Assembly: GCF_011038965.1 (NCBI RefSeq)
Contig: NZ_JAAKEB010000020.1
Span: forward strand, 1 to 39,285
Length of the DNA: 39,285 nt
DNA from: Adlercreutzia sp. ZJ141
GTDB lineage: Bacteria; Actinomycetota; Coriobacteriia; Coriobacteriales; Eggerthellaceae
Direction: 5' to 3'
Of this stretch, positions 15,066 to 36,230 are shown in pieces. How positions within the stretch are numbered: the stretch's first letter is position 1; every line of letters begins with the position of its first letter. The notes under the pieces are model-generated. The model was not told the DNA's origin and ran no database searches. It saw only the letters and a list, made by a program, of their open reading frames with translations. Position numbers and translations under genes: made by a program.

Positions 15066-15244
15066 TCGAAAGTTCTTGAAACAGAGCACACAGATGCATT
15101 TGCACTGCGTGTTCTTGTGCCGCAGGTGTTGTGTTTATACAACAATCAGGCACGGCGACCGTAAGGCCGCAAGGGGTGACTTACCCCACCCCCATACATA
15201 TCTTGAGATGGCGAAATCGTCGCAAAGCGCGTTCCGTCGATCGA
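15066..15244 (+). promoter_or_regulatory. Long untranslated leader upstream of loaP, structure unassigned
   Basis: About 180 bases between the putative promoter and the terminator, with no convincing gene. Local foldable segments include GGGGT/ACCCC around 15173-15187 and GCGA/TCGC near 15211-15223. The arrangement of a long leader followed by a terminator and then a gene is that of an attenuator or riboswitch. I could not match it to a known aptamer class with confidence. Confidence 0.4.
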
Positions 15245-15326
15245 AGAGAGAGTGAATAGCTTCGTTGTGCTTAGGAAAGCAGCCGCCGCATGGGCGGTAG
15301 TGCAGCTATTCACCCTCTCTTTTTTA
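15245..15326 (+). terminator. Strong intrinsic terminator in the loaP leader
   Basis: AGAGAGAGTGAATAGCT (15245-15261) pairs with AGCTATTCACCCTCTCT (15304-15320), 17 bp with one mismatch. The loop contains its own CCGCC/GGCGG hairpin, and a run of T residues follows directly (15320-15325). It stands between the promoter and loaP, so read-through must be controlled for the operon to be expressed. Confidence 0.8.
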
Positions 15327-15381
15327 TTCGACGGACGTTTGACAAGCAAACAGTAGAGCAGCAGAAAAGGAGCAGGCGGGT

Positions 15382-15894
15382 ATGTGGTACGTGGCACAGG
15401 TGCAGGCGGGTCGCGAGACCGCCACGAGAAACCTGTGCAAGCTCATGGTTTCACCGCAAGCCATGGAAGATTGCTTCGTGCCCGAGTACGAAACCATGTG
15501 GAAAGTGCGCGGCGAATGGAGGCTGGTGCACCGTCTGCTGTTTTCAGGATATGTATTCTTCGTAAGCGACGACCCCAAAGAGCTACACAAACAGCTTTTG
15601 CGGGTGCCCATGCCTATCCGCATCTTAGGAAACGAGAAAAACGCATACTTCCCGCTTACCGATAAAGAACGCGACTGGTTTTTGTCGTTCATGGACGGAA
15701 ACCACGTGGTGCGCATGAGCGAAGGGTATATCACCGGCGATAAGGTAACGGTCACGCGCGGCCCGCTGATGGGGTTTGAAGGCAGCATCCGAAAGATCGA
15801 CCGTCACAAGCGTCGCGCATACTTAGACGTAAAGCTGTTCGGCCGCACTGTCCCTGCAAGCGTGGGCCTGGAAATCGTGAGGAAAACCGCATGA
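15382..15894 (+). CDS. loaP: LoaP-type transcription antiterminator (NusG paralogue)
   Basis: 170 residues. The N-terminal NGN domain begins MWYVAQVQAGRET and includes the LFSGYVFF segment typical of specialised NusG proteins; the C-terminal KOW domain is GDKVTVTRGPLMGFEGSIRKID (about 117-138). LoaP proteins in Firmicutes and actinobacteria promote processive antitermination of long polysaccharide and antibiotic operons and recognise an RNA hairpin in the leader. Its place as first gene of a long surface-polysaccharide locus fits that role. An AAAGGAG ribosome-binding site lies upstream, about ten bases before the ATG. The stop overlaps the next small ORF by ATGA. The upstream terminator suggests autoregulation, which is inference. 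Confidence 0.88.
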   Translation: MWYVAQVQAGRETATRNLCKLMVSPQAMEDCFVPEYETMWKVRGEWRLVHRLLFSGYVFFVSDDPKELHKQLLRVPMPIRILGNEKNAYFPLTDKERDWFLSFMDGNHVVRMSEGYITGDKVTVTRGPLMGFEGSIRKIDRHKRRAYLDVKLFGRTVPASVGLEIVRKTA

Positions 15895-16046
15895 GCGAAA
15901 CAACTCGCATGATCCAAGCGCAGCTCGGGGGGGGGGGCATTGAGAGCCAGCAACGCGCGATAGTGGCGGAAGCTATGGGGCGCAGGCTATCTGCGTCCCT
16001 ACTTATGCTCAGGACCAGGCTAAACCCACGAAACTCAGAAGTATGA
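15891..16046 (+). CDS. 51-codon ORF with an 11-G tract, coupled to loaP and the dehydratase gene
   Basis: An ATG that overlaps the loaP stop (ATGA) opens a 51-codon frame ending in TGA at 16044-16046, which itself overlaps the ATG of the next gene (ATGA at 16043). Residues 13-16 are four glycines encoded within an uninterrupted run of 11 G (15927-15937). The rest (IESQQRAIVAEAMGRRLSAS) is a mildly basic amphipathic helix-like stretch with no family I recognise. Double ATGA coupling argues that it is translated. Adding one G stops the frame at the TGA right after the tract; losing one G stops it about ten codons later. See the finding on phase variation. Confidence 0.6.
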   Translation: MSETTRMIQAQLGGGGIESQQRAIVAEAMGRRLSASLLMLRTRLNPRNSEV

Positions 16047-17926
16047 CAAGCAAGCTTACAAAACGAGGATTCTTGCGAGCTTTGCCACTCGTGCTCATAG
16101 ATACAGTGGCTACGTTTGCGGCCTACGCTGTGGCAGCGTGGGGCACACAGGTGGGTGGAGCGCTGGCGCAACCCAGCTCGTTTGGTCACATCGCCTTTTT
16201 CGCCCTGGTAAACGTTGTTGTCTACGCAGCGTGTCGCATGTACAGCTGCCTGTGGGAATATGCCAGCATTGATGAAGCAATGCGGCTCATTTCAGCATCG
16301 TTCTTGTCGTCGCTGGCGGGTAGCATCTTAGGTTATGGCCTGTTGGGAGCACGTCTTCCGCTGCGCGTGTATGTGGTTGCATGGTTGCTCTTCCTGGGCG
16401 TTACGGCGGCGGCGCGTTTTGCGTTGCGTGTGTACTCGGGACGTAAGAGCTGGTCGCTTTTCGGAGCATCATCTGAGGGTATGCCACGTACACTTGTGGT
16501 GGGTGCGGGGGAAAGCGGCTCTATGACGGTAAAGCGCATGCTGTCGTGCGATCAGAGCATCGTGGGCTGTCCAGTTGCACTTGTTGATGACAATCGAATA
16601 AAGCTTGGTACCTACGTGCATGGCGTAAAGGTTATGGGGACGTGTGACGACATTGAAGCACTTTCGAAGCGGCTCGGCGTCGAGCAGATTGTTATAGCGA
16701 TACCCTCCGCAACGCGGGAACAGCGCGACCGGGTTTTGGCGCAGTGCATGAAAACAGAGCTTCGGGTACTCACGCTGCCCGATATTAAGGACATCCCCGC
16801 AGGAGAGCTAGATCAAGCAGTGCTGCGCGAGGTTGAAGTGGCCGATCTGCTTGCCCGTGACGAAGTGGAGCTTAACCTGGGTCAGATGGCTTACGTGGCG
16901 GGCAAGCGTGTGTTGGTAACAGGTGGGGGAGGCTCCATTGGAAGCGAGCTCGTGCGTCAGCTGTTGCCCGCTAAGCCCGTGAAGATTGTTTTGTTTGATA
17001 TTTACGAAAACACCACCTATGAACTACTGCACGAGGTGAAAGGCCAGGCGGCTGATTTAGGTGTGCAAATTGCGGTGGAAATAGGGTCAATCACCCACAT
17101 GCCTGCGCTTCAAAAGTGCTTTGCCGACCACAAGCCACAAGTGGTGTTTCATGCGGCGGCACACAAGCACGTGCCGCTTATGGAGGCGAACCCGCGCGAA
17201 GCCATAGAAAACAACGTGTTTGGCACACTGAACCTTGTACGCATCGCACACGAGCAAGGCTGCACGCATTTCATCCTGATATCAACCGACAAGGCGGTGA
17301 ACCCTGTAAACGTTATGGGTGCTACCAAGCGCATGTGCGAAATGATTGTGCAGTGTTACGCGAGTATGAGTGACACGGTGTTTGCCGCCGTGCGTTTTGG
17401 CAACGTATTAGGTAGCCACGGTAGCGTGATACCGCTGTTCAAGCGCCAGTTGCGCGATGGTGGGCCTATTACGGTTACGCACAAGGACATTACCCGCTAC
17501 TTCATGACCATCCCCGAGGCAAGTCGATTGGTTATAGCGGCTGGTGCGCTGGCTCGTGGGGGAGAGATATTCATCCTAGACATGGGTGAACCTGTGCGCA
17601 TTTGGGATTTAGCGGAGAACCTGGTAAGGCTTTCGGGGCTTAAACCCGGCCGCGATATTCAGATTGTCGAGACAGGCTTGCGCCCCGGCGAGAAGATGTT
17701 CGAAGAGCTGCTGATGGATGAAGACGAGCCGCTGCCTACCGACAACCCAGGCATAACTGTAAGCCGTGCATCAGCACCTGAGGTCGATGACGTGCGTGCG
17801 CGCATCGAATTACTCGAAGGTAGCCTGAACGGTACGAACAACGCCATCAAGCGTGTGCTCGCCGAAGCAGTGCCGACCTACCAGCCCGAATTGCATGACG
17901 GGAAGACGGATACACATGCTGCGTAG
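16043..17926 (+). CDS. Membrane-bound UDP-GlcNAc 4,6-dehydratase (CapD/WbpM/PglF family)
   Basis: 627 residues. Four N-terminal hydrophobic segments (about 12-130) are followed by a nucleotide-binding-like domain (about 140-270) and a short-chain dehydrogenase domain with TGGGGSIGSELV (about 293-304). The catalytic region STDKAVNPVNVMGATK (about 414-429) has Met where classical SDRs have Tyr, as usual for this family. It converts UDP-GlcNAc to UDP-2-acetamido-2,6-dideoxy-4-keto-hexose at the inner membrane face. The next gene, a DegT aminotransferase, would act on the 4-keto product. Its ATG overlaps the stop of the 51-codon ORF and has only a weak ribosome-binding site of its own, so coupled translation is likely. 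Confidence 0.9.
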   Translation: MTSKLTKRGFLRALPLVLIDTVATFAAYAVAAWGTQVGGALAQPSSFGHIAFFALVNVVVYAACRMYSCLWEYASIDEAMRLISASFLSSLAGSILGYGLLGARLPLRVYVVAWLLFLGVTAAARFALRVYSGRKSWSLFGASSEGMPRTLVVGAGESGSMTVKRMLSCDQSIVGCPVALVDDNRIKLGTYVHGVKVMGTCDDIEALSKRLGVEQIVIAIPSATREQRDRVLAQCMKTELRVLTLPDIKDIPAGELDQAVLREVEVADLLARDEVELNLGQMAYVAGKRVLVTGGGGSIGSELVRQLLPAKPVKIVLFDIYENTTYELLHEVKGQAADLGVQIAVEIGSITHMPALQKCFADHKPQVVFHAAAHKHVPLMEANPREAIENNVFGTLNLVRIAHEQGCTHFILISTDKAVNPVNVMGATKRMCEMIVQCYASMSDTVFAAVRFGNVLGSHGSVIPLFKRQLRDGGPITVTHKDITRYFMTIPEASRLVIAAGALARGGEIFILDMGEPVRIWDLAENLVRLSGLKPGRDIQIVETGLRPGEKMFEELLMDEDEPLPTDNPGITVSRASAPEVDDVRARIELLEGSLNGTNNAIKRVLAEAVPTYQPELHDGKTDTHAA

Positions 17927-19160
17927 ACTTGAGGGCATTGTGCCTTTCGAGCAGAAGGTGTGGCTGAGTTCACCCACCATGCACGGTGATGAGCTGCGCT
18001 ACATCACCGAGGCATACGAGACAAACTGGATGTCAACGGTTGGCGAGAACATCAACGAAGTTGAGCGTCTCATCTGCGAAAAGGTTGGCTGCAAGCACGC
18101 TGTGGCTCTTTCGAGTGGCACGGCCGCACTACACCTAGCAGTGAAACTCGCCGGTGTGAAGCCGGGGGATAAGGTTCTCTGCAGTGATATGACCTTCGAT
18201 GCCACAGTGAACCCCGTAGTATACGAAGGCGGCGTGCCCGTATTTGTGGATACCGAGCGCGACACTTGGAACATGGACCCAGTTGCTCTTGAGCGCGCAT
18301 TCGAGTCGCACCCCGAAGCAAAGGCTGTGGTAGTGGCGCATCTCTACGGTGTATCCGGCAAGATAGACGAGATAGTGGCGGTGGCGAAGGCTCACGGTGC
18401 TGTGGTTGTTGAAGATGCTGCCGAGTCGCTCGGTGCCACCTACAAGGGCAAGCAGACCGGTACCTTCGGAGATATCAACTGCATCAGCTTCAACGGAAAC
18501 AAGATCATAACCGGCTCGTCTGGTGGCATGTTGCTTACTGACAAAAAGGAAGCAGCCGACAAGGTTCGCAAGTGGTCAACTCAGGCACGAGAAGCCGCTC
18601 CCTGGTACCAGCATGAAGAACTGGGCTACAACTATCGCATGAGCAATGTGATAGCCGGCGTAGTTCGCGGGCAGATACCCTACCTCGAAGAGCACATTGC
18701 TCAGAAAAAGGCTATCTACGAGCGCTACAAGGAAGGTCTCAAGAATCTTCCTGTTTCTATGAATCCTTACGACTCTGAGAATTCCGAACCGAACTTCTGG
18801 CTCTCCTGCCTGCTAATCGATGAAAACGCTATGTGCCGACAGGTGCGCGGTGAGCGGGATGTCCTGTATGTGAGTGAGCCTGGCAAGAGCTGCCCTCATG
18901 AGATTCTAGACGCACTGGCTGCAATCAACGCAGAAGGCCGCCCCATCTGGAAGCCCATGCACATGCAACCGATCTATCGTAGCAACTCGTTCGTAACCCG
19001 CAACGGCGACGGAAGGGCACGTACGAATGCCTACATCGAAGGTGAAACACTCGACGTAGGAATGGACATCTTCCAGCGTGGCGTGTGTTTACCCTCCGAT
19101 AACAAGATGACTCCAGAACAGCAGGAAGCGATCATTGAGGTCATCAAGAGGTGCTTTTAG
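17916..19160 (+). CDS. DegT/DnrJ/EryC1/StrS-family sugar aminotransferase
   Basis: 414 residues from the ATG at 17916. This is a PLP enzyme of the family that aminates 4-keto nucleotide sugars (PglE, PseC, ArnB type). Visible are LSSGTAALHLAVKLAGVKPG (PLP phosphate site), VVEDAAESLGATYKG, and the Schiff-base lysine in SFNGNKIITGSSGG (about Lys 196). It overlaps the end of the dehydratase gene by 11 bases. Together the pair would make a UDP-4-amino-4,6-dideoxy-GlcNAc. An alternative start 21 codons upstream lies deep within the dehydratase gene and is less likely. Confidence 0.9.
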   Translation: MLRRLEGIVPFEQKVWLSSPTMHGDELRYITEAYETNWMSTVGENINEVERLICEKVGCKHAVALSSGTAALHLAVKLAGVKPGDKVLCSDMTFDATVNPVVYEGGVPVFVDTERDTWNMDPVALERAFESHPEAKAVVVAHLYGVSGKIDEIVAVAKAHGAVVVEDAAESLGATYKGKQTGTFGDINCISFNGNKIITGSSGGMLLTDKKEAADKVRKWSTQAREAAPWYQHEELGYNYRMSNVIAGVVRGQIPYLEEHIAQKKAIYERYKEGLKNLPVSMNPYDSENSEPNFWLSCLLIDENAMCRQVRGERDVLYVSEPGKSCPHEILDALAAINAEGRPIWKPMHMQPIYRSNSFVTRNGDGRARTNAYIEGETLDVGMDIFQRGVCLPSDNKMTPEQQEAIIEVIKRCF

Positions 19161-19167
19161 TAGATGA

Positions 19168-19776
19168 GTGCTGATGCGGATCGTTAATCTGCTGATAAAA
19201 GGAATCTTCGATGTGGTTTTCAGCGCGTGTCTTTCTATTGTCTTGCTGCCTTGGTGGGTACTCATTGCTGTATTGATAAAACTTACCATGCCGGGACCGG
19301 TGTTCTTTAAACAAGTTCGTGCTGGAAAAAATGGCGAGGAGTTCGAGATACTGAAATTCAGAACGATGAGAGTTGACGTTGAGGCAGAGAAGGCCTTTGA
19401 CGTCTCGAAAGACACTGATCGGCTCACTGTTCTGGGAAGTGTTTTGCGACGATTGAAGCTCGACGAGACACCTCAGCTACTGAACGTCCTGAAGCGCGAT
19501 ATGTCTTGCGTGGGACCGCGTCCTACTTTCAAAAGCCAGGTAGAAGAGTATGACGACTTCCAGAGACGCCGACTCGAGATGCTTCCTGGTATGACCGGTC
19601 TTGCTCAGACGAACGGCAACGTCAGCTTGACCTGGGATGATAGGATTCTCTACGACGTCTACTATATAGATCATTTCTCGATTCTTCTTGATCTTAAGAT
19701 CCTTATGAAGACGGTCTTCATTGTCTTGTTCGGTGAGGATAGGTTCAGGCGACTTCCAATGAACGTTGAGAGATAG
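19168..19776 (+). CDS. Initiating sugar phosphotransferase (PglC/WcaJ C-terminal type)
   Basis: 202 residues, the small monotopic form. One N-terminal reentrant hydrophobic segment (about 8-38, ending in PGPVFFKQVRAGKNG) is followed by FEILKFRTM and the catalytic Asp-Glu pair in LKLDETPQLLNVLKRDMS (about 97-114) and by GPRPTF. These phosphoglycosyl transferases move a sugar-1-phosphate from UDP onto undecaprenyl phosphate, starting the repeat unit. By neighbourhood the substrate is the product of the two preceding genes. The start is a GTG at 19168; an ATG at 19174 is an equally possible start. Confidence 0.9.
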   Translation: MLMRIVNLLIKGIFDVVFSACLSIVLLPWWVLIAVLIKLTMPGPVFFKQVRAGKNGEEFEILKFRTMRVDVEAEKAFDVSKDTDRLTVLGSVLRRLKLDETPQLLNVLKRDMSCVGPRPTFKSQVEEYDDFQRRRLEMLPGMTGLAQTNGNVSLTWDDRILYDVYYIDHFSILLDLKILMKTVFIVLFGEDRFRRLPMNVER

Positions 19777-19806
19777 CCATTGAACGACCCAAGGGGTGTT
19801 TACTCG

Positions 19807-20706
19807 GTGAAAGTAGTGGTGATAGGCGCAGTTGTCTCAACGAAGGTTGTTGTCGAGCGGCTTATGCGCGCGAACGTGGAGATCGCGATGGTCTTTTGTT
19901 TGGATGAAGCGATCAGTGAGAACGTGTCCGGCTACTGTCCCCTGCATGAGTTGGCGGAAGCGAACGGAATTCCCTACAAGAAGTTCCGAAAGATCAACGA
20001 TGATGAGAACGTTCGGATCATGGAGGAAATCAAGCCCGATTACATCTTTGCGGTCGGCTTCTCTCAGATCGTCGGCTCGAGAATCATTAACGCCGCTAAG
20101 GGGGGTGCCATAGGTTTTCACCCGACGCCATTGCCGAAGTTCAGAGGACGTGCTGCGATGGTGTGGCAAGTGCTCCTCGGTGTTCGCGAAACTGCTTGCA
20201 CGATGTTCTTCCTTGATGAGGGAATGGACTCTGGGGATATAATCGCGCAGGAGTCTTACGAGATTGGTGAAGACGACTACGCAGAGGACGTTGGAAATAA
20301 GCTGCTTGAGGCCATGGTTCCACTTACGGATCGCGTTATCGAGAAGTTATCCCATACGCCTGTAGACGTCGTGAAACAAGACGAGTCGCAGGCGAGCTAC
20401 CTACTGAAGAGGACGCCCGAAGACGGGCTCATCGACTGGTCCCGGCCTGTTTGCGAAATCCATCGCCTCGTTAGGGGGGTCTCCCATCCTTATCCGGGCG
20501 CGTTCGGCATGTATGACGGTGTTCATAAGGTGACCATCTGGCGTGCTGACGCCAGGGAGAACAGCAAGTATATAGGAATTCCTGGCCAGATAGCCTACGT
20601 GGATCAAACTGGCTTTGGGGTTGTATGCGTGGACGGATTGCTGCACATCACCGACTTCGAGAGCGAAGATAACGTGCGTTTGCTTGTAGGACATAAACTG
20701 AAATGA
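19807..20706 (+). CDS. Sugar N-formyltransferase (methionyl-tRNA formyltransferase fold)
   Basis: 299 residues from a GTG with AAGGGG at 19791-19796. A TTG at 19780 would add nine residues. The formyltransferase N-terminal domain has GFHPTPLPKFRGRA (His near residue 105) and FFLDEGMDSGDI (Asp near 141), which bind N10-formyltetrahydrofolate and catalyse transfer. The C-terminal part (RTPEDGLIDWSR, about 203-214) matches the FMT C-terminal domain. In the usual Asn-x-His-Asp catalytic set the Asn position is Gly here. The genome context (after a 4-aminotransferase) indicates formylation of a 4-amino sugar nucleotide rather than initiator tRNA. Confidence 0.82.
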   Translation: MKVVVIGAVVSTKVVVERLMRANVEIAMVFCLDEAISENVSGYCPLHELAEANGIPYKKFRKINDDENVRIMEEIKPDYIFAVGFSQIVGSRIINAAKGGAIGFHPTPLPKFRGRAAMVWQVLLGVRETACTMFFLDEGMDSGDIIAQESYEIGEDDYAEDVGNKLLEAMVPLTDRVIEKLSHTPVDVVKQDESQASYLLKRTPEDGLIDWSRPVCEIHRLVRGVSHPYPGAFGMYDGVHKVTIWRADARENSKYIGIPGQIAYVDQTGFGVVCVDGLLHITDFESEDNVRLLVGHKLK

Positions 20707-21386
20707 CAGTTGGTGGACAAATGAACGTGCTCGTATTCGCACCTCACCCTGATGACGAGGTTCTTGGCTGTGGGGGAACCATTGCTAGATTAGCTCATGA
20801 GGGATGCAGTGTTTACGTTTGCGTAGTGACAAAGGGTGTGGAGCCCCTCTTTTCCGAGAAAGGTGTTAGTAGAATAAGGAACGAGCAAGCTGCGGCCCAT
20901 GAGATCCTCGGCGTTACTGACGTCTTCTACCTCGACTTTCCCGCAGCGATGCTCGAAGAGTCTCATCGCTATGAGCTAAACGGGAGCGTTTCCTGGGTGT
21001 TGGATACAGTGCGACCTGAATTGGTTTTTATCCCGCATTTTGGAGACATGCAGCGAGACCATGGTTTGGTTAGCGAGGCGGTCATGGTTGCTGTCAGGCC
21101 GCGTGGTGACTACTCTGTCAGAAAGATCCTGTCCTATGAGACTCTGAGTGAGACGGAATGGAACATTCCTCATTCCTCAACGTCCTTCATGCCGAATTGC
21201 TTTATCGACATCAGTTCGTACAAGGATTTGAAGCTGCATGCCCTAGCAAAGTTTGAGTCTCAGGTAGCACCGTTTCCATGTCCTCGATCCATCGAAGCTG
21301 TCGAGGCTCTCGCAAAGCTGAGAGGCTCTACTATTAATGTTCAAGCGGCTGAGGCGTTTTCGGTGATTCGTGAAATTGTGCGTTAA
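20703..21386 (+). CDS. PIG-L (LmbE-like) family deacetylase
   Basis: 227 residues. The family signature APHPDDEVLGCGGT (His15, Asp17, Asp18 from the first Met) binds the catalytic zinc together with a later His in HFGDMQRDHG. These enzymes remove N-acetyl groups from GlcNAc-type sugars or related small molecules. ATGA overlap with the formyltransferase gene gives the first start; an internal Met seven residues in (20721) may be the real one. The substrate in this locus is unknown; a glycan or nucleotide-sugar N-acetyl group is the reasonable guess. Confidence 0.85.
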   Translation: MTVGGQMNVLVFAPHPDDEVLGCGGTIARLAHEGCSVYVCVVTKGVEPLFSEKGVSRIRNEQAAAHEILGVTDVFYLDFPAAMLEESHRYELNGSVSWVLDTVRPELVFIPHFGDMQRDHGLVSEAVMVAVRPRGDYSVRKILSYETLSETEWNIPHSSTSFMPNCFIDISSYKDLKLHALAKFESQVAPFPCPRSIEAVEALAKLRGSTINVQAAEAFSVIREIVR

Positions 21387-21437
21387 ATCTAGAAAACCGA
21401 ACATGGTATATGCGTATTTTGGGACGAGGCGCTGCTT

Positions 21438-22640
21438 GTGAACGTCTTGTTTATGAGTGTGGCTGGAATAGGGAACTTAGACGGCCAAAGTATATATGGG
21501 GATCTCCTCAAGACGTTCAGGTTACATCAGCATCAAGTGTATGTAGTGAACCCAGTTGAAAGGCGATCTGGTAAGAATACTGAATCCCTTATTTCTCATG
21601 GGGTTCGAATTCTTGATGTTCGCACCGGAAACCTGCAGAAGTGTGGCTTAGTGGAGAAGGGGATCTCGCAACTGAGGCTTGAGAGACAGTTCCTGTCAGC
21701 GATAAAAAAACACTTTGCAGGGATTCATTTCGACCTCATCTTATACCCGACGCCACCCACCACGTTGGGTGGATTGATAGGGAAGCTTAAGGCAAAGCAC
21801 GATGCTATGACGTATCTTCTGCTCAAGGATATCTTCCCACAGAACTCCCTTGATCTGGGCATGTTGTCCAAGGATGGGGTTAAGGGCCTGATCTATCGAT
21901 ACTTCAAGCGCACTGAGCGGAAGACCTATGAGGTATCCGACTTCATCGGCTGTATGTCCGAGGCAAACCGTCGCTATCTCGTTAAGTATGAGTCTTGGCT
22001 TGATCCTGATAAGGTTGAGGTCAACCCGAATAGCCTGATTCCTCGGGATATGCCCGACGTTGACAGGGTTGCCTTGCGTGCGAGGTTTGGTATCCCCACC
22101 GATACTCGTCTCTTCACGTACGGTGGCAACCTCGGAAAACCGCAGGCTATCGACTTCCTCATTCGGGTATTGAAACTCAATGAGGTGCGTGGCAACGTTT
22201 ATTTCGCTATTGCGGGTGACGGAACCGAACGGCATTACCTTGAGGATTACTTTGATAAGGAGAAGCCGAAGAGCGCAAAGCTGTTTCCCTACCTGTCAAG
22301 AGAGGAATTTGACTCTCTTTTGCAGGCTTCTGACTGCGGCATCATCCTGCTCGATCATCGCTTCACTATTCCCAATTTTCCTTCTCGTAGTTTGTCGTAT
22401 TTGCAGGCAGAGATTCCCTACATTGCTGCGACTGATGAGGTGAGCGACATAGGAACGCTGGCTGAAGCTGAGGGGTTCGGCGTGAAGGTAGACAGCGTTG
22501 ATGAAGCCAAGTTCCTCAAGGCATGTGAAACCCTCTCTTTTCGGGAGTTAAGGCAAATGGGGGAAAAGGGTCGTCGGTACTTCGAGGAAAACTACACGGC
22601 AGAACGTTCATACGAGAAGATCATGGAGCACGTTAAATGA
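21438..22640 (+). CDS. Glycosyltransferase family 4
   Basis: 400 residues from a GTG. It has a GT-B fold pattern: an N-terminal domain beginning MNVLFMSVAGIGN; a C-terminal nucleotide-sugar domain with FTYGGNLGKPQAIDFLI, FAIAGDGTERHYLEDYF and LFPYLSREEFDSLLQASDCGIILLD; and PSRSLSYLQAEIPYIA in place of the usual 'P.K..EY.A.G.P' motif. Its stop overlaps the start of fnlA. Because WbuB-type transferases for L-FucNAc sit beside fnlABC in enterobacterial loci, transfer of L-FucNAc is a plausible but unproven role. Confidence 0.85.
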   Translation: MNVLFMSVAGIGNLDGQSIYGDLLKTFRLHQHQVYVVNPVERRSGKNTESLISHGVRILDVRTGNLQKCGLVEKGISQLRLERQFLSAIKKHFAGIHFDLILYPTPPTTLGGLIGKLKAKHDAMTYLLLKDIFPQNSLDLGMLSKDGVKGLIYRYFKRTERKTYEVSDFIGCMSEANRRYLVKYESWLDPDKVEVNPNSLIPRDMPDVDRVALRARFGIPTDTRLFTYGGNLGKPQAIDFLIRVLKLNEVRGNVYFAIAGDGTERHYLEDYFDKEKPKSAKLFPYLSREEFDSLLQASDCGIILLDHRFTIPNFPSRSLSYLQAEIPYIAATDEVSDIGTLAEAEGFGVKVDSVDEAKFLKACETLSFRELRQMGEKGRRYFEENYTAERSYEKIMEHVK

Positions 22641-23698
22641 TTGACTCTAAAACATTCAACGAAAAGACTCTCATGATCACTGGTGGAACCGGCTCGTTCG
22701 GCTCCACGGTACTGAAGCACTTCCTCAACTCTGATGTGGGCGAGATACGCATCTTCTCCCGTGATGAGAAGAAGCAAGACGACATGCGCCACAGGTTGCA
22801 GCGGGTAAGTCCTGATGCAGCTCGCAAAGTGCGTTTTCTCATCGGGGACGTGCGCGACTCACAAAGTGTTCGGGACGCCATGCGAGGTGTGGACTACGTG
22901 TTTCATGCGGCAGCACTCAAGCAGGTGCCATCCTGTGAGTTCTTCCCCATGGAAGCCGTACGTACAAACGTTATTGGTACTGACAATGTGCTTCATGCAG
23001 CTATTGCTGAAGGGATTAAGCGCGTGGTGTGTTTGTCCACCGACAAAGCGGCATACCCCATTAATGCTATGGGTAAGTCTAAGGCTATGATGGAGTCAAT
23101 CATTTACGCCAACGCGAGAAACGGGGCTGCAGCAGGAACCACCATCTGCTGCACGCGTTATGGCAACGTCATGTGTTCGAGGGGAAGTGTAATCCCGCTC
23201 TTCATCGATCGTATTCGTAAGGGTCTGCCACTTACGATAACCGACCCCAACATGACACGTTTTCTCATGAACTTAGATGAGGCGGTCGATCTTGTCTGTT
23301 TCGCTTTTGAGCATGCAAACCCAGGAGACCTTTTCATCCAAAAAGCTCCGGCTTCCACTATCGCCGACCTTGCCGAGGCGGTGCAAGAGGTGTTCGGACA
23401 CACTGGTACCCAAGTTATCGGAACTCGTCATGGTGAGAAGCTCTTTGAGACACTTATGACCTGCGAAGAGAGACTTCGCGCTGAGGATATGGGCAACTAC
23501 TACCGAGTACACGCTGACACACGCGATCTTAACTACGACAAGTTCGTAGTGGATGGTGACGTAAAGACAATGGCGACAGAAGCATACACCTCACACAACA
23601 CTACCCGATTGGATGTTGCTGGTACTGTCGCAAAGATCAAAACCGCCGAGTATATCCAGCTTGCTTTGCAAGGTCGAGAGTACGAGGCGGTGCAGTAG
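22637..23698 (+). CDS. fnlA: UDP-GlcNAc 4,6-dehydratase/5-epimerase (FnlA/CapE/WbjB)
   Basis: 353 residues, a soluble SDR with TGGTGSFGSTV (about 15-25). The catalytic STDKAAYPINAMGKSKAMMES (about 135-155) again has Met in the Tyr position. This family performs the first step from UDP-GlcNAc to UDP-N-acetyl-L-fucosamine. The two following genes encode the remaining two steps in order, which makes the assignment firm. ATGA overlap links it to the upstream glycosyltransferase. Confidence 0.92.
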   Translation: MIDSKTFNEKTLMITGGTGSFGSTVLKHFLNSDVGEIRIFSRDEKKQDDMRHRLQRVSPDAARKVRFLIGDVRDSQSVRDAMRGVDYVFHAAALKQVPSCEFFPMEAVRTNVIGTDNVLHAAIAEGIKRVVCLSTDKAAYPINAMGKSKAMMESIIYANARNGAAAGTTICCTRYGNVMCSRGSVIPLFIDRIRKGLPLTITDPNMTRFLMNLDEAVDLVCFAFEHANPGDLFIQKAPASTIADLAEAVQEVFGHTGTQVIGTRHGEKLFETLMTCEERLRAEDMGNYYRVHADTRDLNYDKFVVDGDVKTMATEAYTSHNTTRLDVAGTVAKIKTAEYIQLALQGREYEAVQ

Positions 23699-23699
23699 C

Positions 23700-24896
23700 G
23701 TGAAAGTTCTCGTTACCGGAGCCAAGGGCATGGTGGGAACTGCGCTTTGCCGTACGCTTAAGAACTTGCGAGATGGCAAAGATCGTACTCGACCGAACCT
23801 CAAAATCGACGAGGTATTCGAGTACGACTTGAACTCAACTCCTGAAGAACTCAGGGCTTACTGTAAGGCATGTGACTTCGTATTCAACCTTGCTGGCGTG
23901 AACCGCCCGAAGGATCCTATCGAGTTCATGGCGGGCAACTTCGGGTTTGCAAGCGATCTTCTGAACGAGCTTAAGGCTGCCGGAAACACCTACCCAGTCA
24001 TGTTGGCATCATCTGTCCAGGCAACACTTGCCGGTCGGTTCGAAGGGAGCGAGTACGGCCGTTCCAAACGAGCCGGTGAAGAGCTCTTCCTTACCTACGG
24101 TAAGGAAACCGGTGCCAAGGTTGCGATCTATCGCTTCCCGAACCTCATGGGGCATTCCCGCCCCAATTACAACTCGGCTGTGTCAACCTTTTGCTGGGCT
24201 ATAGCAAACGATGAACCCTTCGAGGTGAGCGATCCGAATGTAGAGCTTGAGCTTCTCTACATTGACGATCTCATTAAGGGCATGCTTGACCTTCTGGAAG
24301 GTAAGGAACAACGTTGTGAGTACGATGGGGTAGAGGTGGCGCCGACCGATGAAGGCCGCTACTGTTACGTGCCGATCACCCATAAGGTGACCTTGGGGCG
24401 TATCGTGGAACTCCTTCAAGTGTATAAAACTCAGTCCGAAACGCTTCTGATGCCGAAGATGCCGGAATGCTCTTTCGAGAAAAAGCTCTACTCACTCTAT
24501 CTTACGTACCTACCCGCAGAGAGGTTCAAGTACCCGCTCAAAATGAACGTCGACAATCGCGGAAGCTTTACCGAGTTGATTCATACCCGAGATTGCGGCC
24601 AGGTATCTGTCAACATATCTAAGCCTGGCGTCACCAAAGGCCAACACTGGCACAGCTCTAAGTGGGAGCTCTTTATTGTGGTTAAGGGTCATGGACTCAT
24701 CCAAGAACGCAATATCAACACTGGTGAAACAGCTGAGTTCGAAGTATCGGGCGACAAGATTGAAGCTGTATACATGGTTCCCGGCTGGACTCACAACATA
24801 ACCAACCTCTCTGACACTGAGGATCTGATTACGGTAATGACTTGCAACGAGGTTTTCGATCCGGAGCATCCCGACACATACTACGAGGAGGTGTAA
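23700..24896 (+). CDS. fnlB: Bifunctional SDR-cupin reductase/epimerase (FnlB/CapF/WbjC)
   Basis: 398 residues from the GTG at 23700, one base after the fnlA stop. The N-terminal SDR domain starts MKVLVTGAKGMVGTAL, and a C-terminal cupin (about 280-395) contains GVTKGQHWHSSKWELFIVVKG with the metal-binding His pair and VPGWTHNITNLSD. The cupin epimerises and the SDR reduces the 4-keto intermediate to UDP-N-acetyl-L-talosamine in CapF-type enzymes. A longer in-frame ORF begins inside fnlA, but the GTG places the Rossmann motif correctly at the N-terminus. Confidence 0.92.
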   Translation: MKVLVTGAKGMVGTALCRTLKNLRDGKDRTRPNLKIDEVFEYDLNSTPEELRAYCKACDFVFNLAGVNRPKDPIEFMAGNFGFASDLLNELKAAGNTYPVMLASSVQATLAGRFEGSEYGRSKRAGEELFLTYGKETGAKVAIYRFPNLMGHSRPNYNSAVSTFCWAIANDEPFEVSDPNVELELLYIDDLIKGMLDLLEGKEQRCEYDGVEVAPTDEGRYCYVPITHKVTLGRIVELLQVYKTQSETLLMPKMPECSFEKKLYSLYLTYLPAERFKYPLKMNVDNRGSFTELIHTRDCGQVSVNISKPGVTKGQHWHSSKWELFIVVKGHGLIQERNINTGETAEFEVSGDKIEAVYMVPGWTHNITNLSDTEDLITVMTCNEVFDPEHPDTYYEEV

Positions 24897-24900
24897 ACCC

Positions 24901-26064
24901 GTGGCGTCCTTCAAGAATGACGGCAGGCTGAAACTCCTCATCATCGTGGGCACCCGCCCCGAGATCATCCGACTGTCCGAGCTCATCAAGAAGTGTCGCA
25001 GGTACTTTGATACCCTGCTTGCTCATACAGGACAAAACTACGACTACAACCTCAATGGTGTGTTCTTCCATGACCTGGAGCTTGACGACCCTGATGTGTA
25101 TCTGGATGCCGTGGGCACCGACCTCGGCGAGACTATGGGCAACATCATTGCGAAGAGTTATCAGCTCATGACCGAGATCAAGCCTGATGCGGTGCTGGTG
25201 CTTGGTGACACCAACTCGTGTCTATCGGTCATCGGTGCCAAGAGGTTGCATATCCCTATCTTTCACATGGAGGCAGGCAATCGCTGCAAGGATGAATGTT
25301 TGCCGGAAGAGACGAACCGAAGAATTGTCGACGTCATATCGGATGTAAACCTTGCATACTCAGAACACGCCAGGCGCTACCTCAAGGACGCCGGCTGTGC
25401 TCCTGAGCATACCTATGTGACAGGAAGCCCCATGGCTGAGGTGCTGAGCAAGAATCTCAGTAAGATCAACTCAAGCAACATTCATACAGAGCTCGGACTC
25501 GAGAAAGGTCACTACATCCTACTTAGTGCCCACCGGGAAGAAAACATCGACACTGAGACAAACTTCGAGAGCCTGTTCTCTGCCGTAAACGCCATGGCTG
25601 CCAAGTATGATATGCCTGTCCTCTACAGCTGCCATCCGCGAAGCCGCAAGCGCCTGGCAGCTTCCGGTTTCAAACTTGACCCCCGCGTGCGCATGCATGA
25701 ACCACTGGGTTTCCATGACTATAACTGCCTGCAGGCAAACGCCTTCTGTGTCGTTTCCGACTCAGGGACGCTGCCCGAAGAGTCTTCTTTCTTCGCGAGT
25801 GTCGGCCAGTCTTTCCCAGCGGTATGTATAAGAACGAGCACCGAGCGCCCTGAAGCGCTTGACAAGGCATGCTTTATTCTCTCGGGAATCGATGAACGGG
25901 GCCTGCTGCAAGCGGTGGATCTAGCTGTAGCCATGGAGACCGACGACCACCATGGTATCCCGGTCCCTGACTATACCGACAAAAACGTCTCCGACAAGGT
26001 GGTCAAGATCATCCAGTCCTACACGGGCGTGGTGAACAAGATGGTGTGGAGGAAGGTTCTTTGA
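24901..26064 (+). CDS. fnlC: UDP-GlcNAc 2-epimerase-like enzyme (FnlC/CapG/WbjD)
   Basis: 387 residues from a GTG with AGGAGG at 24886-24891. The epimerase_2 fold signature is clear: LLIIVGTRPEIIRLSELI (about 13-30), HTGQNYDYN, VLGDTNSCLS, HMEAGNR (about 124-130), LPEETNRRIVD and LSAHREENID. As the last of the fnlABC set it performs 2-epimerisation to UDP-N-acetyl-L-fucosamine. Confidence 0.93.
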   Translation: MASFKNDGRLKLLIIVGTRPEIIRLSELIKKCRRYFDTLLAHTGQNYDYNLNGVFFHDLELDDPDVYLDAVGTDLGETMGNIIAKSYQLMTEIKPDAVLVLGDTNSCLSVIGAKRLHIPIFHMEAGNRCKDECLPEETNRRIVDVISDVNLAYSEHARRYLKDAGCAPEHTYVTGSPMAEVLSKNLSKINSSNIHTELGLEKGHYILLSAHREENIDTETNFESLFSAVNAMAAKYDMPVLYSCHPRSRKRLAASGFKLDPRVRMHEPLGFHDYNCLQANAFCVVSDSGTLPEESSFFASVGQSFPAVCIRTSTERPEALDKACFILSGIDERGLLQAVDLAVAMETDDHHGIPVPDYTDKNVSDKVVKIIQSYTGVVNKMVWRKVL

Positions 26065-26112
26065 AGTGGCAATGATGTTGGGCATTGAAGACTGCAATGA
26101 TTGGGAAAAATG

Positions 26113-27261
26113 ATGAGTGAAGAACGAGAATACCAAGTTTGTAAGAAATGCGTCATGGATACGACCGACGAAGATATTTCATTCAACGTCAATGGTGTAT
26201 GTAATCGCTGCATCGAGTATGAAACCCGAATTTTGCCCGAGTGGAACTACGGAAAGGGCCATGAAGAAGAACTAAGCGGGCTATTGAACGAGATCAAATC
26301 AAAAGGCGCGAGCAAACCTTATGATTGCATCCTTGGGCTAAGCGGTGGCCTGGACAGTACTTATATGCTCCATCTTGCGGTTAGAGAATGGGGGCTTCGA
26401 CCGTTCGTGTTCCATATCGATGCGGGATGGAACCTCCCTGTTGCCGAGGAGAACGTCAAAAGAGTAACCGATAAACTAGGCGTAGATCTTCATGTCGAGA
26501 AGATGAACTGGGATGAGATGCGGGAAATGCAATTGGCTTGGTTTCGCACTGGAATGGAGAACCTCGATTCTCCCCAGGATCACGCGTTTATTGCCCTTAT
26601 TGACAGGTATTCTCGAGAGCTTGGGGTCAAATACATACTCAACGGCTACAACATCTGCACCGAAGTCGTTGCCGACCCGGCCTCCTGGGGAAAAGACGGA
26701 GGTCCTACGGGGGATAGTACCTACATGAAGGATGTGATCAGAAAGCACTGTACTATACCCATAAAAGAGTACACGTTTACCAATGGTTTCAAGCACAAAG
26801 TTGTTCTTCCTTATATATACGGCGTGAAAACGATCAAGCCGTTGAACCTCGTTCACTTCACAAAAAGGCAGATGGTGGAAACCCTTCAAACCGAATACGG
26901 ATATGTTCCTTACGGGCAGAAGCATTTTGAGGATTTAATTACGAAGTTTCTTGAGGGTTGGTGGGTTCCCACGCGTTTTGGGCACGATATTCGCAGGGCG
27001 CAGCTGTCGAGCTTGGTTATGACGGGACAAATGAGCAGAGATGAAGCTTTGCGTATTTTGGAGAAGTCTCCCCTGACGGACGAAGAGGCGAAAGAGCTGT
27101 TCTCCGAGGTTGCAAAACGACTTGAAATAAGCGAAGACGAGCTGATGGAATACCACGAGATGCCAAAGTGCTCGGAGCGTTTCCGAAGCCAGAAGGCGCT
27201 TTACAATACCGGAATTAAGCTGTTCGAGGCTCTCGGCATCGAAAAGCGAATTAGGAAATAG
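26113..27261 (+). CDS. N-acetyl sugar amidotransferase (WbpG/LegG-like)
   Basis: 382 residues. N-terminal Cys pairs (CKKCVMDTT, CNRC) are followed by an ATP-pyrophosphatase loop LGLSGGLDSTYML (about 74-86) and conserved downstream segments FHIDAGWNLPVAEENV and NGYNICTEVV. This family replaces an N-acetyl oxygen with ammonia-derived nitrogen to form an acetamidino group on a nucleotide sugar. Known members work with HisH- and HisF-like partners that supply ammonia; none is present in this window. Starts at 26101 (TTG) or 26110 are also in frame. Confidence 0.85.
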   Translation: MSEEREYQVCKKCVMDTTDEDISFNVNGVCNRCIEYETRILPEWNYGKGHEEELSGLLNEIKSKGASKPYDCILGLSGGLDSTYMLHLAVREWGLRPFVFHIDAGWNLPVAEENVKRVTDKLGVDLHVEKMNWDEMREMQLAWFRTGMENLDSPQDHAFIALIDRYSRELGVKYILNGYNICTEVVADPASWGKDGGPTGDSTYMKDVIRKHCTIPIKEYTFTNGFKHKVVLPYIYGVKTIKPLNLVHFTKRQMVETLQTEYGYVPYGQKHFEDLITKFLEGWWVPTRFGHDIRRAQLSSLVMTGQMSRDEALRILEKSPLTDEEAKELFSEVAKRLEISEDELMEYHEMPKCSERFRSQKALYNTGIKLFEALGIEKRIRK

Positions 27262-27328
27262 GGTTCGAAAAAAAGCGGCCTTTTCCGGGCAGAACAGCCG
27301 AAGTGGAGCTTCTTAAGAGGGTACATGA

Positions 27329-28489
27329 ATGAGCGGATACGTTCAGATTCACAGTGACTCCTACAGCTGGTTCAAGCCGATAGTTTACGATCGTCACTTG
27401 TCGTTGCTGGCTGATGGTGTGGATTCTTATGTAGCTTGGGGACGAGGACGCGAGTCGGGTGATGAGTTCGGCGCAAGCGGACAACCTCGTGAGTTTAAGA
27501 TATCAACCAAGGTGGGGCTCTGGCGAGATGCAGCGCTCTCGCGCCTTGATGATCGAGATGGTTTCCACTCAAAAGGCGAGACAAAACGGCTTTTGGAGTG
27601 GCTTGACGCGATTAATCCTGACACCGTGCATTTGCATCAACTGCACGGTTACTACATGAACGTAGAGATGCTGTTTAACTGGTTGGCGGCGCAATCATGC
27701 AATGTCATCTGGACATTACATGATTGTTGGGCTTTTACGGGTCACTGCACGTATTTCACCATGGTTAAGTGTGAGCAGTGGCGCTCCTGTTGTGCATGCG
27801 AAAGATCTTGCCCTCAGTTGAGGGAATATCCCAAGGCATTTGGACGAGGTGCGTGCAAGAGAAACTTCGAGGATAAGAAGAGACTCTTCACGATGATCTC
27901 TCCTGAGCGAATGACGATATATACACCTTCGCGGTGGCTCGCGGATCTCGTAGGAGCGAGCTTTCTATCAAAGTATCCTGTAGAAGTGCATCACAATCAG
28001 ATTGATCATACCGTATTCAAGCCTACTCCGAGCGACTTTCGTGAACGATACGGTATAGACGACCGATTTATGATTCTCGGTGTGGCGAATCCCTGGACCG
28101 AACGAAAGGGTCTTGATGACTTTCTTCAATTGGCAGCAGAGCTGGACGAGCGGTACGCTGTTGTACTGGTGGGTCTTTCCAAAAAGCAAATTAAGGAACT
28201 ACCAAAGTGTATCGTAGGCATCAAGTGCACTGACAGTCCGACGGAACTTGCTGAGGCGTACACCGCTGCTAACTTGTTTATAAACCCGAGCATTGAGGAA
28301 ACCTACAGCATGACAACTGCCGAGGCAGCTGCTTGTGGCACGCCTGTAGCTGTTGTTGAGGGCACAGCGTGTGTTGAAGCTGCTGAAGACGCCAAAAAAT
28401 ACGTTATACACTTAGGTGATTTGAAGTCTGTCGTAACGCAAAGCTATCAAGATACGATATGCACTCAGTGTGTCTCAAAACAAAAGTGA
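27329..28489 (+). CDS. Glycosyltransferase family 4
   Basis: 386 residues; AAGAGGG sits just upstream of the ATG. The N-terminal part has DTVHLHQLHGYYMN and WTLHDCWAFTGHCTYF, followed by a Cys cluster (CEQWRSCCACERSCPQL, about 148-164) found in WcaL/WcaC-like transferases. The C-terminal nucleotide-sugar domain has ILGVANPWTERKGLDDFL and INPSIEETYSMTTAEAAACGTPV (E-x7-E motif). The C-terminus after CGTPVAVVEGTA is rather short. The acceptor and donor are not predictable from sequence. Confidence 0.85.
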   Translation: MSGYVQIHSDSYSWFKPIVYDRHLSLLADGVDSYVAWGRGRESGDEFGASGQPREFKISTKVGLWRDAALSRLDDRDGFHSKGETKRLLEWLDAINPDTVHLHQLHGYYMNVEMLFNWLAAQSCNVIWTLHDCWAFTGHCTYFTMVKCEQWRSCCACERSCPQLREYPKAFGRGACKRNFEDKKRLFTMISPERMTIYTPSRWLADLVGASFLSKYPVEVHHNQIDHTVFKPTPSDFRERYGIDDRFMILGVANPWTERKGLDDFLQLAAELDERYAVVLVGLSKKQIKELPKCIVGIKCTDSPTELAEAYTAANLFINPSIEETYSMTTAEAAACGTPVAVVEGTACVEAAEDAKKYVIHLGDLKSVVTQSYQDTICTQCVSKQK

Positions 28490-29600
28490 GAATACGTTGG
28501 GTTCAGTTGTAAAAATGTATAGCTTGGCGTATGGGTTATTCTTTATGGGGATAGCTTTGCTGTATTGTAATAGTCTTATTGCGTATACGAACGTGAGCGT
28601 TGCGTATAAGGATCCTGCTAGGATTGTATCAGCTCTTTTTCTGGTAGCGTCTTCTCTGTTGAATTTCAATCGTCTTAGAATGCCAGTTCCTGTTGTGCTT
28701 ATCGCTATTCTCTCATTTATCTCTGTTTTGCTTCATGGGCTTGTGGCATTGAATTTTCTTCTTATTGTTTTGTTTGTCTTGAGTTCTAGCGCTTTTGAAA
28801 AGCATCTGGTAATTAGGGCAATTGCTTATACTACGGTAATATCTATCGTTCTGTATGGTGTGCTCTATATGCTTGGGCTAATACAGTGGAATTATACTTT
28901 TTGGGATGGCCGCCTGAGAAACACTCTTGGCTTTTATAATGAGAATGTGGCTGCAACTTTCTTTTCGGCAATGCTTGTGTTGCCTTATACATTTAGGCGT
29001 CGAAGAATCTTATGGATGATCGCATTGATGCCACCTTACTTCATTGTCTATTTGCTGACGGATTCCAGAAGTACCATTGTGATTGGATTTATAATGCTGC
29101 TCGCTTGCGCTCTATTCTATATACTTGAAAAACAAGGTAGAAGAAAAACGAGCGCCATAATAACAAGTCTAGTACTGTATGGTACTTTAGTAATCTCCTT
29201 TTTGTTGCCATATGTTGGGACGAGTTCACTTGACCTGATTTTGAGTTATAGACTCACTGTTTTTCGGCAAGCAATCAATGCTTTGTTTGGAACTCCTTTT
29301 GCTTTTTGGATTGGCTTGCCTATTGAAATAGATAACTGTTATATTACGCTTCTAGCAAATTACGGCATTCTACTCTTCTTGCTTCTCTTTTACTGCATCC
29401 AGAAGGCAATAGTAGTCTATTCGAAGGGTGGAGGATGGATGGAGCTCGCTCTTATCTTAACCATGTTGGTTTACAGCATGGTTGAAGGTAATCTATTTCG
29501 TCCAGAGGTAATGTTAACTCTTGCATTTTGGTATTTTGTCCTTGGGTGTAATGGCGAATCTGGATATTCAGAAATTAGCATGGATTCAATCAAAAGCTAA
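28470..29600 (+). CDS. wzy: Wzy-type oligosaccharide repeat-unit polymerase
   Basis: 376 residues, almost entirely hydrophobic, with about ten membrane helices and a large middle loop (about 140-165: LGLIQWNYTFWDGRLRNTLGFYNEN). The pattern of an O-antigen polymerase is supported by its place between glycosyltransferases and a flippase. The gene is markedly richer in A and T than its neighbours, as is typical of wzy. The GTG at 28470 overlaps the upstream gene; an ATG at 28515 (MYSLAYGLFF) is a plausible alternative start. No good ribosome-binding site is visible for either. Confidence 0.75.
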   Translation: MSQNKSENTLGSVVKMYSLAYGLFFMGIALLYCNSLIAYTNVSVAYKDPARIVSALFLVASSLLNFNRLRMPVPVVLIAILSFISVLLHGLVALNFLLIVLFVLSSSAFEKHLVIRAIAYTTVISIVLYGVLYMLGLIQWNYTFWDGRLRNTLGFYNENVAATFFSAMLVLPYTFRRRRILWMIALMPPYFIVYLLTDSRSTIVIGFIMLLACALFYILEKQGRRKTSAIITSLVLYGTLVISFLLPYVGTSSLDLILSYRLTVFRQAINALFGTPFAFWIGLPIEIDNCYITLLANYGILLFLLLFYCIQKAIVVYSKGGGWMELALILTMLVYSMVEGNLFRPEVMLTLAFWYFVLGCNGESGYSEISMDSIKS

Positions 29601-29644
29601 GCTTGTCCTGCGATGATGGATAAAATAATCCAATCCGATAGTAT

Positions 29645-30913
29645 TTGAGGTTGCGAAATTACAAACATATAACTTTCTACAGAAACACCGCATGGCAGTA
29701 CGGCCTACAGGTTGTTAAGTATCTCTTCCCGTTGATTACTCTGCCGTATCTCACGCGTGTGTTGGAACCGGACGGGTATGCAGTCTATGCTTACGTTCTA
29801 TCGCTAATGACATTTGCTCAGGTGTTTATCGATTTTGGGTTCAACCTATCGGGCACTAAGCAGATAGCTGCAGCTGTATCTGTCAAGGATGAGAACTATA
29901 CGATCGGCGCTATAACGCAGGCGCGACTCGTTCTGTGTGTAGTATCAGGTCTCGTTGTTTGCGCAGTGGCCAGTCTCATTCCGATTACGGCCACAAACCT
30001 AGACTATACCATGCTCGCATTCGCTGCGGTGTGTGGGAGGGCGATGGCTCCTGACTTCGTATTCCAGGGACATGAGGACATGAGGCCAATTACCGTGCGC
30101 TACTTCGTATCCAAGGGTATCTCCACCGCTCTCACTTTTGTGTTTGTTAAGTCAGTTGCTGACCTCATGTGGATCCCCGTGTTGGACATCCTTGCAAGTG
30201 CGATCGCTCTCGCTTGGTCATTCGCGACTTCAAAGAGGCTCTTTGGGACGGTGATTATGTGGGTCACGATGCGCCGGGTTCTCTCCGAGCTGCGCGACTC
30301 GGCACTCTATTGCTTCTCGAACATGGCAGCATCAGTGTTTTCTGGTTTCACAACCTTACTGATTGGCGTGGTTGTGCCAGACGCTGCGCAGATATCGTAC
30401 TGGTCTCTTGCTATGACCGCAGTGTCCGCTGTACAGTCCCTCTACTCTCCGATAGTTGACAGCATGTACCCCCACATGGTTAGGTCCTGCGACTTCGGTT
30501 TCGTCATGAAGACGGCTCTTGTCGCTCTACCCACAATTCTGGCCGGGACAGTCTTTTTTGTGGATCTACGTGACATCATTGTGCTTGTCCTGGGTGGTGA
30601 GGCGTACCTCGAGGGCACGTGGATTCTAGTCGCGGTGTCACCTGTGCTCCTTTTTTCTTTCTTTGCGATGCTGTTCGGTTGGCCTGTGCTGGGTGCGGCG
30701 GGCAGAGTGCGGGAGGTGACCTCTACTACAGTGGGATCAGGCATATTCTGTATTACAGCTCTACTGGTTGTTTCCTTTCTAGGCATGGCGACTATGCCCA
30801 TCATCTGTGGTATACGAGTGATAACTGAAGTTGTTCTATGTCTGAGTAGGGTGTGGTTTTGTAGAACTCTGGTTTTTAAAAGTGGCGCAAGGCTTCGTCA
30901 TCGGTCTAGATGA
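29645..30913 (+). CDS. wzx: Wzx-type polysaccharide flippase
   Basis: 422 residues of the MOP/RfbX superfamily with about 12 membrane segments. The N-terminus (RNTAWQYGLQVVKYLFPLITLPYLTRVL) is characteristic of O-antigen and teichuronic-acid exporters. It would flip the undecaprenyl-linked repeat unit for Wzy polymerisation. The start is a TTG with no strong ribosome-binding site; alternative starts further in would delete the conserved first helix. Confidence 0.88.
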   Translation: MRLRNYKHITFYRNTAWQYGLQVVKYLFPLITLPYLTRVLEPDGYAVYAYVLSLMTFAQVFIDFGFNLSGTKQIAAAVSVKDENYTIGAITQARLVLCVVSGLVVCAVASLIPITATNLDYTMLAFAAVCGRAMAPDFVFQGHEDMRPITVRYFVSKGISTALTFVFVKSVADLMWIPVLDILASAIALAWSFATSKRLFGTVIMWVTMRRVLSELRDSALYCFSNMAASVFSGFTTLLIGVVVPDAAQISYWSLAMTAVSAVQSLYSPIVDSMYPHMVRSCDFGFVMKTALVALPTILAGTVFFVDLRDIIVLVLGGEAYLEGTWILVAVSPVLLFSFFAMLFGWPVLGAAGRVREVTSTTVGSGIFCITALLVVSFLGMATMPIICGIRVITEVVLCLSRVWFCRTLVFKSGARLRHRSR

Positions 30914-30940
30914 CGTGGAACGATATCAGATGAGTGGGGT

Positions 30941-33393: not shown

Positions 33394-33397
33394 GAAG

Positions 33398-36222: not shown

Positions 36223-36230
36223 TGTTGAGA

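Follow-up and report, generated by a model that had tools for sequence, protein, structure and literature searches.

The question raised by this locus is whether a long run of G residues, placed between an antiterminator gene and the first sugar gene of a polysaccharide operon, can switch the genes behind it. The window (the whole stretch of DNA analysed, 39,285 nt of Adlercreutzia sp. ZJ141, here G000:C10) contains such a run, and a sequence-only reading had proposed it as a phase-variation switch acting through a small spacer ORF.

The tract and its operon in the window

The G run occupies positions 15927-15937 of the plus strand and is 11 nt long in the one assembly that gives its length, homopolymer lengths in assemblies being liable to error. 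The direct count agrees with the earlier reading, which had placed 11 G inside a small ORF. No other run of at least eight G or C is found in the window. Only one of 100 dinucleotide shuffles equalled the window's four overlapping G8 matches, and the 2.29-Mb genome (57 contigs) has six runs of at least nine, the window tract being one of two with 11.

The tract ORF (15891-16046, plus strand) has 51 codons at 11 G and is a coupled spacer between loaP and a dehydratase gene. Its ATG overlaps the loaP stop and its stop overlaps the dehydratase start, in both cases as ATGA. This layout had been described from the letters alone and is found at these coordinates; the outcomes claimed for 10, 11 and 12 G were likewise obtained when tract lengths of 8-14 were read in silico. 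With 8, 11 or 14 G the ORF has 50-52 codons and reaches the ATGA overlap with the dehydratase gene. With 9 or 12 G it ends right behind the tract at CAT-TGA, 100 nt before the dehydratase start; frame reading places the CATTGA that holds this stop at 15938-15943 on the plus strand. With 10 or 13 G it ends at a TAG located 8 codons past the Gly codons and 80 nt before the dehydratase start. The distance from the tract to the dehydratase start is 105 nt. Because the TGA at 15941-15943 lies in the dehydratase frame after the tract and the first later start codon is at 16043, the dehydratase is not made as a direct fusion. The locus has two features of a contingency locus: a slip-prone homopolymer (11 G) in a coding frame, and a read-through that is altered by the gain or loss of a unit.

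The loaP gene (15382-15894, plus strand) encodes a NusG-family antiterminator paralogue with the Pfam domains PF02357 (NusG N-terminal) and PF00467 (KOW), distinct from the housekeeping nusG, as is characteristic of the LoaP type. This gene is one of eleven NusG-like matches in the 2.29-Mb genome, several of them side by side, and the most distant (25% identical) is on C56. The leader of the loaP operon (15196-15328, plus strand) comprises ACATATCTT, a small hairpin (GGCGAAATCGTC) and a long hairpin at about 15245-15328, with a U run next to it. In an alignment of nine leaders ACATATCTT is invariant, the small hairpin and the long hairpin with its U run are present in 9 of 9, and five of 37 consensus pairs have changes on both sides. 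The leader is intrinsic-terminator-like and a plausible LoaP target, which would fit a LoaP that acts on the operon encoding it.

Behind the spacer, the first sugar gene (16043-17926, plus strand; Polysacc_synt_2 in Pfam) encodes a nucleotide-sugar dehydratase-like protein, its start overlapping the tract ORF stop. The co-directional ORFs at 17853-34694 on the plus strand, 12 of them with Pfam assignments, presumably form the rest of the operon and include genes for an aminotransferase, a sugar transferase, a formyltransferase, a glycosyltransferase, a Polysacc_synt_2 protein, an epimerase, a flippase-like Polysacc_synt protein and LicD, among others. A long co-directional row of biosynthetic genes behind a terminator-like leader is a further LoaP-type feature, the operon itself being presumed. 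Within this row, positions 30941-33393 hold a LicD-family gene and, behind it, a nucleotidyltransferase/choline-kinase-like gene, a pair that recalls phosphocholine decoration; such decoration is phase-variable in Haemophilus. At the far end of the row a DDE_Tnp_ISL3 transposase gene is found on the minus strand (35017-36417).

Related loci and the variation of tract length

Some match to the window loaP is present in 117 of the 138 family genomes, and nine relatives reach 76% identity. In eight relatives the orthologue is intact (76-80% identity to the window loaP), and all eight carry G10, G11 or G12 at +15 to +19 nt after the loaP stop. Counting the window (+32), all nine intact loaP genes of the window type have the tract behind them; these genes share descent and are represented by one assembly for each species. 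The comparison of relatives suggested by the earlier reading therefore gives a tract whose place is kept, as in a contingency locus, and whose length is not fixed (10-12). The presence of a tract in the window thus has the support of all eight intact orthologues, and its exact length has no such support. The genomes G052, G055 and G069 are placed in Eggerthella or Gordonibacter by genus label only.

The surroundings of the tract are also shared. In 8 of 8 relatives the tract ORF begins with an ATG or GTG on the loaP stop (ATGA/GTGA), and in all eight one phase of three joins it to a PF02397 sugar transferase. The tract length is in the passing phase in three (L032, L034, L035) and outside it in five (L030, L031, L033, L036, L037). 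The motif G7TGCTGACC occurs in 8 of the 138 family genomes, once in each and always at the loaP tract. In the ninth relative (G067) loaP is split over two frames and no G9 run was found in 12 kb; the DNA behind this loaP looks, by eye, unlike that of the other relatives. No tract follows the 66% identical loaP of G011. Outside the family, the best match to the window-type loaP among 396 sampled genomes of the class is 51% identical, and no G8+ tract was found behind nine loaP genes from outside the family.

The survey was extended to 102 distinct loaP-like genes, those in the examined loci for which the sequence continued for 200 nt or more downstream. A sense-strand G10+ run lies within 250 nt downstream of 12 of these genes and a C10+ run downstream of one; upstream the corresponding numbers are two and zero. 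The 12 loci consist of the nine window-type loci and three paralogous ones (G066, G068 and G020), where the tract lies behind a paralogue that shares 41-43% identity with a different loaP, used as query. The three share one descent. They repeat the coupled-spacer architecture of the window: one frame of the tract ORF ends in an ATGA/GTGA overlap, 34 codons (102 nt) past the tract. In G066 and G020 the next gene encodes a PF02397 sugar transferase; its G068 counterpart ends after 75 codons, has no family match and so is broken. All three are outside the passing frame by DNA length. The codon-position test showed no clear third-position bias in the paralogue spacer peptides, and the idea of a conserved spacer peptide was dropped for lack of a clear codon-position signal. 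A second module is present in the window genome itself, with 9 G at C13:16700 and a GTGA overlap to a sugar transferase gene; by eye, its tract follows an apparent C-terminal (3') remnant of loaP.

Each of the 12 loaP-linked G10+ loci has one passing and two stopping frames, and four of them, including the window, are in the passing frame by DNA length while eight are out. Between species the tract thus stays in place while its length drifts across the frames. Taken together, these comparisons make it probable that the tract is a conserved slipped-strand contingency locus at the junction of loaP and the capsule genes, and a candidate switch. Replication slippage would add G's to the tract or remove them. 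In the window the tract ORF, with a Shine-Dalgarno of its own, starts on the loaP stop, and one length in three reaches the dehydratase gene; in the relatives the passing length runs directly into the first capsule enzyme, and the other lengths stop at once or soon. A slipping population would then be a mixture of ON cells, which translate the first enzyme, and OFF cells, which do not. In the latter, the lack of translation over this stretch may in addition allow transcription to end early and lower the rest of the operon. Because the switch lies behind loaP, production of the antiterminator would be untouched and only the genes that it drives would vary.

The ratio of 4 in 12 fits drift among three frames; it also fits frameshift decoding. 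In that alternative, RNA polymerase or the ribosome would slip on the tract and yield the frames in the same proportions at every DNA length, the variation in DNA being incidental. Most relatives are indeed out of frame by DNA length, and the downstream frame is open: differences show a third-position excess in the sugar transferase frame in 27 of 28 pairs over the 240 nt past the tract. Since much of this stretch lies beyond possible internal starts, the excess shows the frame of the enzyme and not translation across the tract. Against programmed slippage, it requires neither a hypermutable run of 10-12 nor a TGA directly after it, and tract length changes where the flanks hardly do: between G055 and G054 the 520 nt before and the 800 nt after the tract contain no indel and are 91-93% identical, yet G055 has 10 G and G054 has 11. 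Programmed slippage is accordingly regarded as unlikely.

Ribosome-binding sites and controls

The Shine-Dalgarno of the tract ORF is GAGGA at 15879-15883 on the plus strand, within the final loaP codons, and AGGA is found at this site in 8 of 8 relatives compared. The duplex energy is -5.7 kcal/mol for the tract ORF and -7.2 kcal/mol for loaP, against a median of -2.7 kcal/mol for a background of 500 random 17-mers. For the dehydratase start the value is +0.1 kcal/mol and no Shine-Dalgarno is detectable, which bears out the claim that this gene has little ribosome-binding site of its own, though two other starts in the operon are equally poor: the GTG at 17853 (+0.1; a mechanically called start that may be wrong) and the GTG at 28470 (+0.3). 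The dehydratase gene is therefore not unique in the operon in this respect.

Coupling through the spacer ORF, as proposed earlier, fits the absent Shine-Dalgarno of the dehydratase gene, and the arrangement recurs in the paralogues. The next gene in the paralogous loci and in the C13 copy has a moderate Shine-Dalgarno, however, so coupling need not be absolute; judged from these start sites, the window is where strict coupling has the best support. The earlier interpretation is upheld in part. Comparison strongly supports a slip-prone switch: the place of the tract is kept, its length differences break the frame and one frame passes while two stop. The coupling is not necessarily absolute, polarity across more than 15 kb is a prediction, and the general idea has precedent.

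In a few loci the tract is close to a possible start codon. An in-frame ATG is found 10 nt past the tract in L078, L080 and L081 (a TTG in L085), and this ATG could bypass the tract or use its G's as a Shine-Dalgarno. With a duplex energy of -13.3, such an arrangement speaks for the G run as an oversized Shine-Dalgarno whose length tunes initiation at a nearby start codon. That explanation is very improbable for the locus as a whole: the dehydratase start in the window is 105 nt past the tract, and in L134, L163, L083 and L084 the first in-frame start comes no earlier than +25.

Long G runs are common in the family, and several controls bear on whether the one at loaP is special. A run of exactly 10 is present in 102 of 138 family genomes, and 30 and 34 G10+ runs were counted in G053 (E. 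lenta) and G066 (Gordonibacter), respectively. When the flanks of the 30 tracts in G053 were compared with those of 33 of the 34 in G066, the sole in-register blastn pair was the loaP tract. The translated flank search found the same loaP pair; its matches to the second loaP locus of G066 were displaced by 61 to more than 1000 nt. The L144/L152 pair (61 residues, 44% identity) was not counted as matched, being 43 nt out of register and apparently unlike in DNA. A TGA at +4 to +6 follows 12 of 12 loaP-linked G10+ tracts and none of 60 other tracts in G053 and G066, a rule that was noticed after looking and that covers two descents (nine and three tracts). The C13 copy breaks the rule, with its TGA at +8 to +10. 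The upstream CCGAC alone means little, as the 24 occurrences of CCGACG9 in the family comprise 10 at loaP and 14 elsewhere, the latter about equal to the 13 of a reversed-pattern control. The motif G8TGCTGACCGC on a viral contig was taken as a coincidence after inspection of its surroundings gave no sign of loaP.

The shuffles, the genome run count, the two-genome flank comparison and the TGA rule rule out a chance run. That the tract is an unselected or mis-assembled homopolymer without a role, which the scatter of G10+ tracts through the family might suggest, is hardly credible when only the loaP tract is matched in position and flanks between G053 and G066, when every intact window-type loaP gene has it and when the TGA separates loaP-linked from other tracts completely.

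Other G runs of the window genome lie at or near genes of their own. Ten G (G000:C13:28751-28760; L022:3752-3761) are found inside an Acyl_transf_3 gene (395 aa at the present length), likely a further phase-variable sugar-modifying gene, which shares its contig with the second loaP-tract module. Eleven G (G000:C8:21587-21597; L020:5588-5598) stand just before an in-frame ATG in the gene for an HD- and GGDEF-domain response regulator, where they might act either as an N-terminal switch or as a variable Shine-Dalgarno. A run of 10 G (G000:C35:875-884; L023) is located about 60 nt before a TetR-family ORF, likely in its promoter region. In four other places (L041, L042, L045 and L050, in four genomes) G10-G13 runs occur 428-490 nt before other loaP starts, in differing surroundings.

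Known systems and capsule variation in the family

The specialised NusG antiterminators of the LoaP, RfaH and UpxY types are encoded at the head of long biosynthetic operons with a structured leader, and the window operon resembles them in this; they are not known to carry a contingency tract at the junction. The siaD switch of Neisseria is a poly-C tract and works by Rho-dependent polarity. In Neisseria meningitidis siaD/csb, as described in the available text, mononucleotide-repeat slippage switches a capsule gene off, the tract lying inside the polysialyltransferase gene and not, as here, at an antiterminator junction (PMC8893959).

A closer parallel is provided by the sortase-pilus operons bbr_0113 and bbr_1889 of Bifidobacterium breve, where, according to the accessible part of the report, a G11-G12 tract in the first gene decides by slippage whether translation continues, and where the authors propose polarity on the genes downstream (PMC9187656). 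Both cases have a G tract near the head of a surface-structure operon in a gut actinobacterium. In what the source describes, the Bifidobacterium operons encode pili, with no antiterminator, whereas the window operon encodes a polysaccharide and stands behind loaP. The Bifidobacterium tract also joins two ORFs, as it does in the Eggerthella-type relatives, while the window and the paralogues use a short spacer ORF with a 4-nt overlap. The general idea is thus not without precedent, since slippage of a G tract within the leading gene of a surface-structure operon is published (PMC9187656, in the part available). A literature search found no description of a G tract at a loaP-capsule junction.

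Within the family, a 2026 preprint describes capsule switching in E. lenta by a megabase inversion adjoining loaP, with a 16-bp inverted repeat (PMC13174815). Phase-variable capsule operons tied to loaP are common to that system and the present one, which differ in that the first uses the inverted repeat and the window locus would use a G tract; the available main text of the preprint does not mention a homopolymer, poly-G or frameshift. G-tract slippage and loaP-linked capsule switching are thus already known separately, and the G tract at the loaP-capsule junction appears to be new. Three copies of the repeat were found in G053, at spacings of 32.5 kb and 2.06 Mb as in the accessible text of the preprint, and by this agreement G053 is probably E. 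lenta DSM 2243. In a search of nine genomes the published repeat was absent from the window genome, and in four, all of g22 (G052, G053, G054 and G055), one copy lies 106-121 bp behind a different loaP; in these four, two types of switch would therefore be present at the same kind of junction. Inversion at the tract locus was rejected, as the published repeat is in none of the tract loci examined.

Sequence identity also changes near the tract in some pairs of species, with shifts within 0-600 nt after it (L059-L066). Identity before and after the tract is 82% and 95% for G055-G076, 98% and 85% for G066-G068, and 92% and 64% for G053-G052. The change is gradual in the first pair, comes about 500 nt downstream in the second and falls within about 100 nt of the tract in the third. 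This pattern suggests that capsule cassettes are exchanged behind a constant loaP head, with a breakpoint that is not at the tract itself.

A wider reading, put forward tentatively and given somewhat less than an even chance, is that a family-wide module of antiterminator and contingency tract heads exchangeable capsule cassettes. LoaP would sustain the transcript only if ribosomes follow, so that a slip in the tract ORF would uncouple translation and switch the whole operon, and Eggerthella would have two different phase-variation devices, the G tract and the inversion repeat, placed alike behind two loaP genes. According to the available text of the preprint (PMC13174815), E. lenta shows a link between capsule state and sensitivity to phages. 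A conserved G-tract switch would add a second and probably faster level at which the capsules of common gut bacteria vary, one that would be readable from existing sequencing data. The locus also offers a natural test of whether NusG-type antiterminators shield an operon from polarity once translation breaks.
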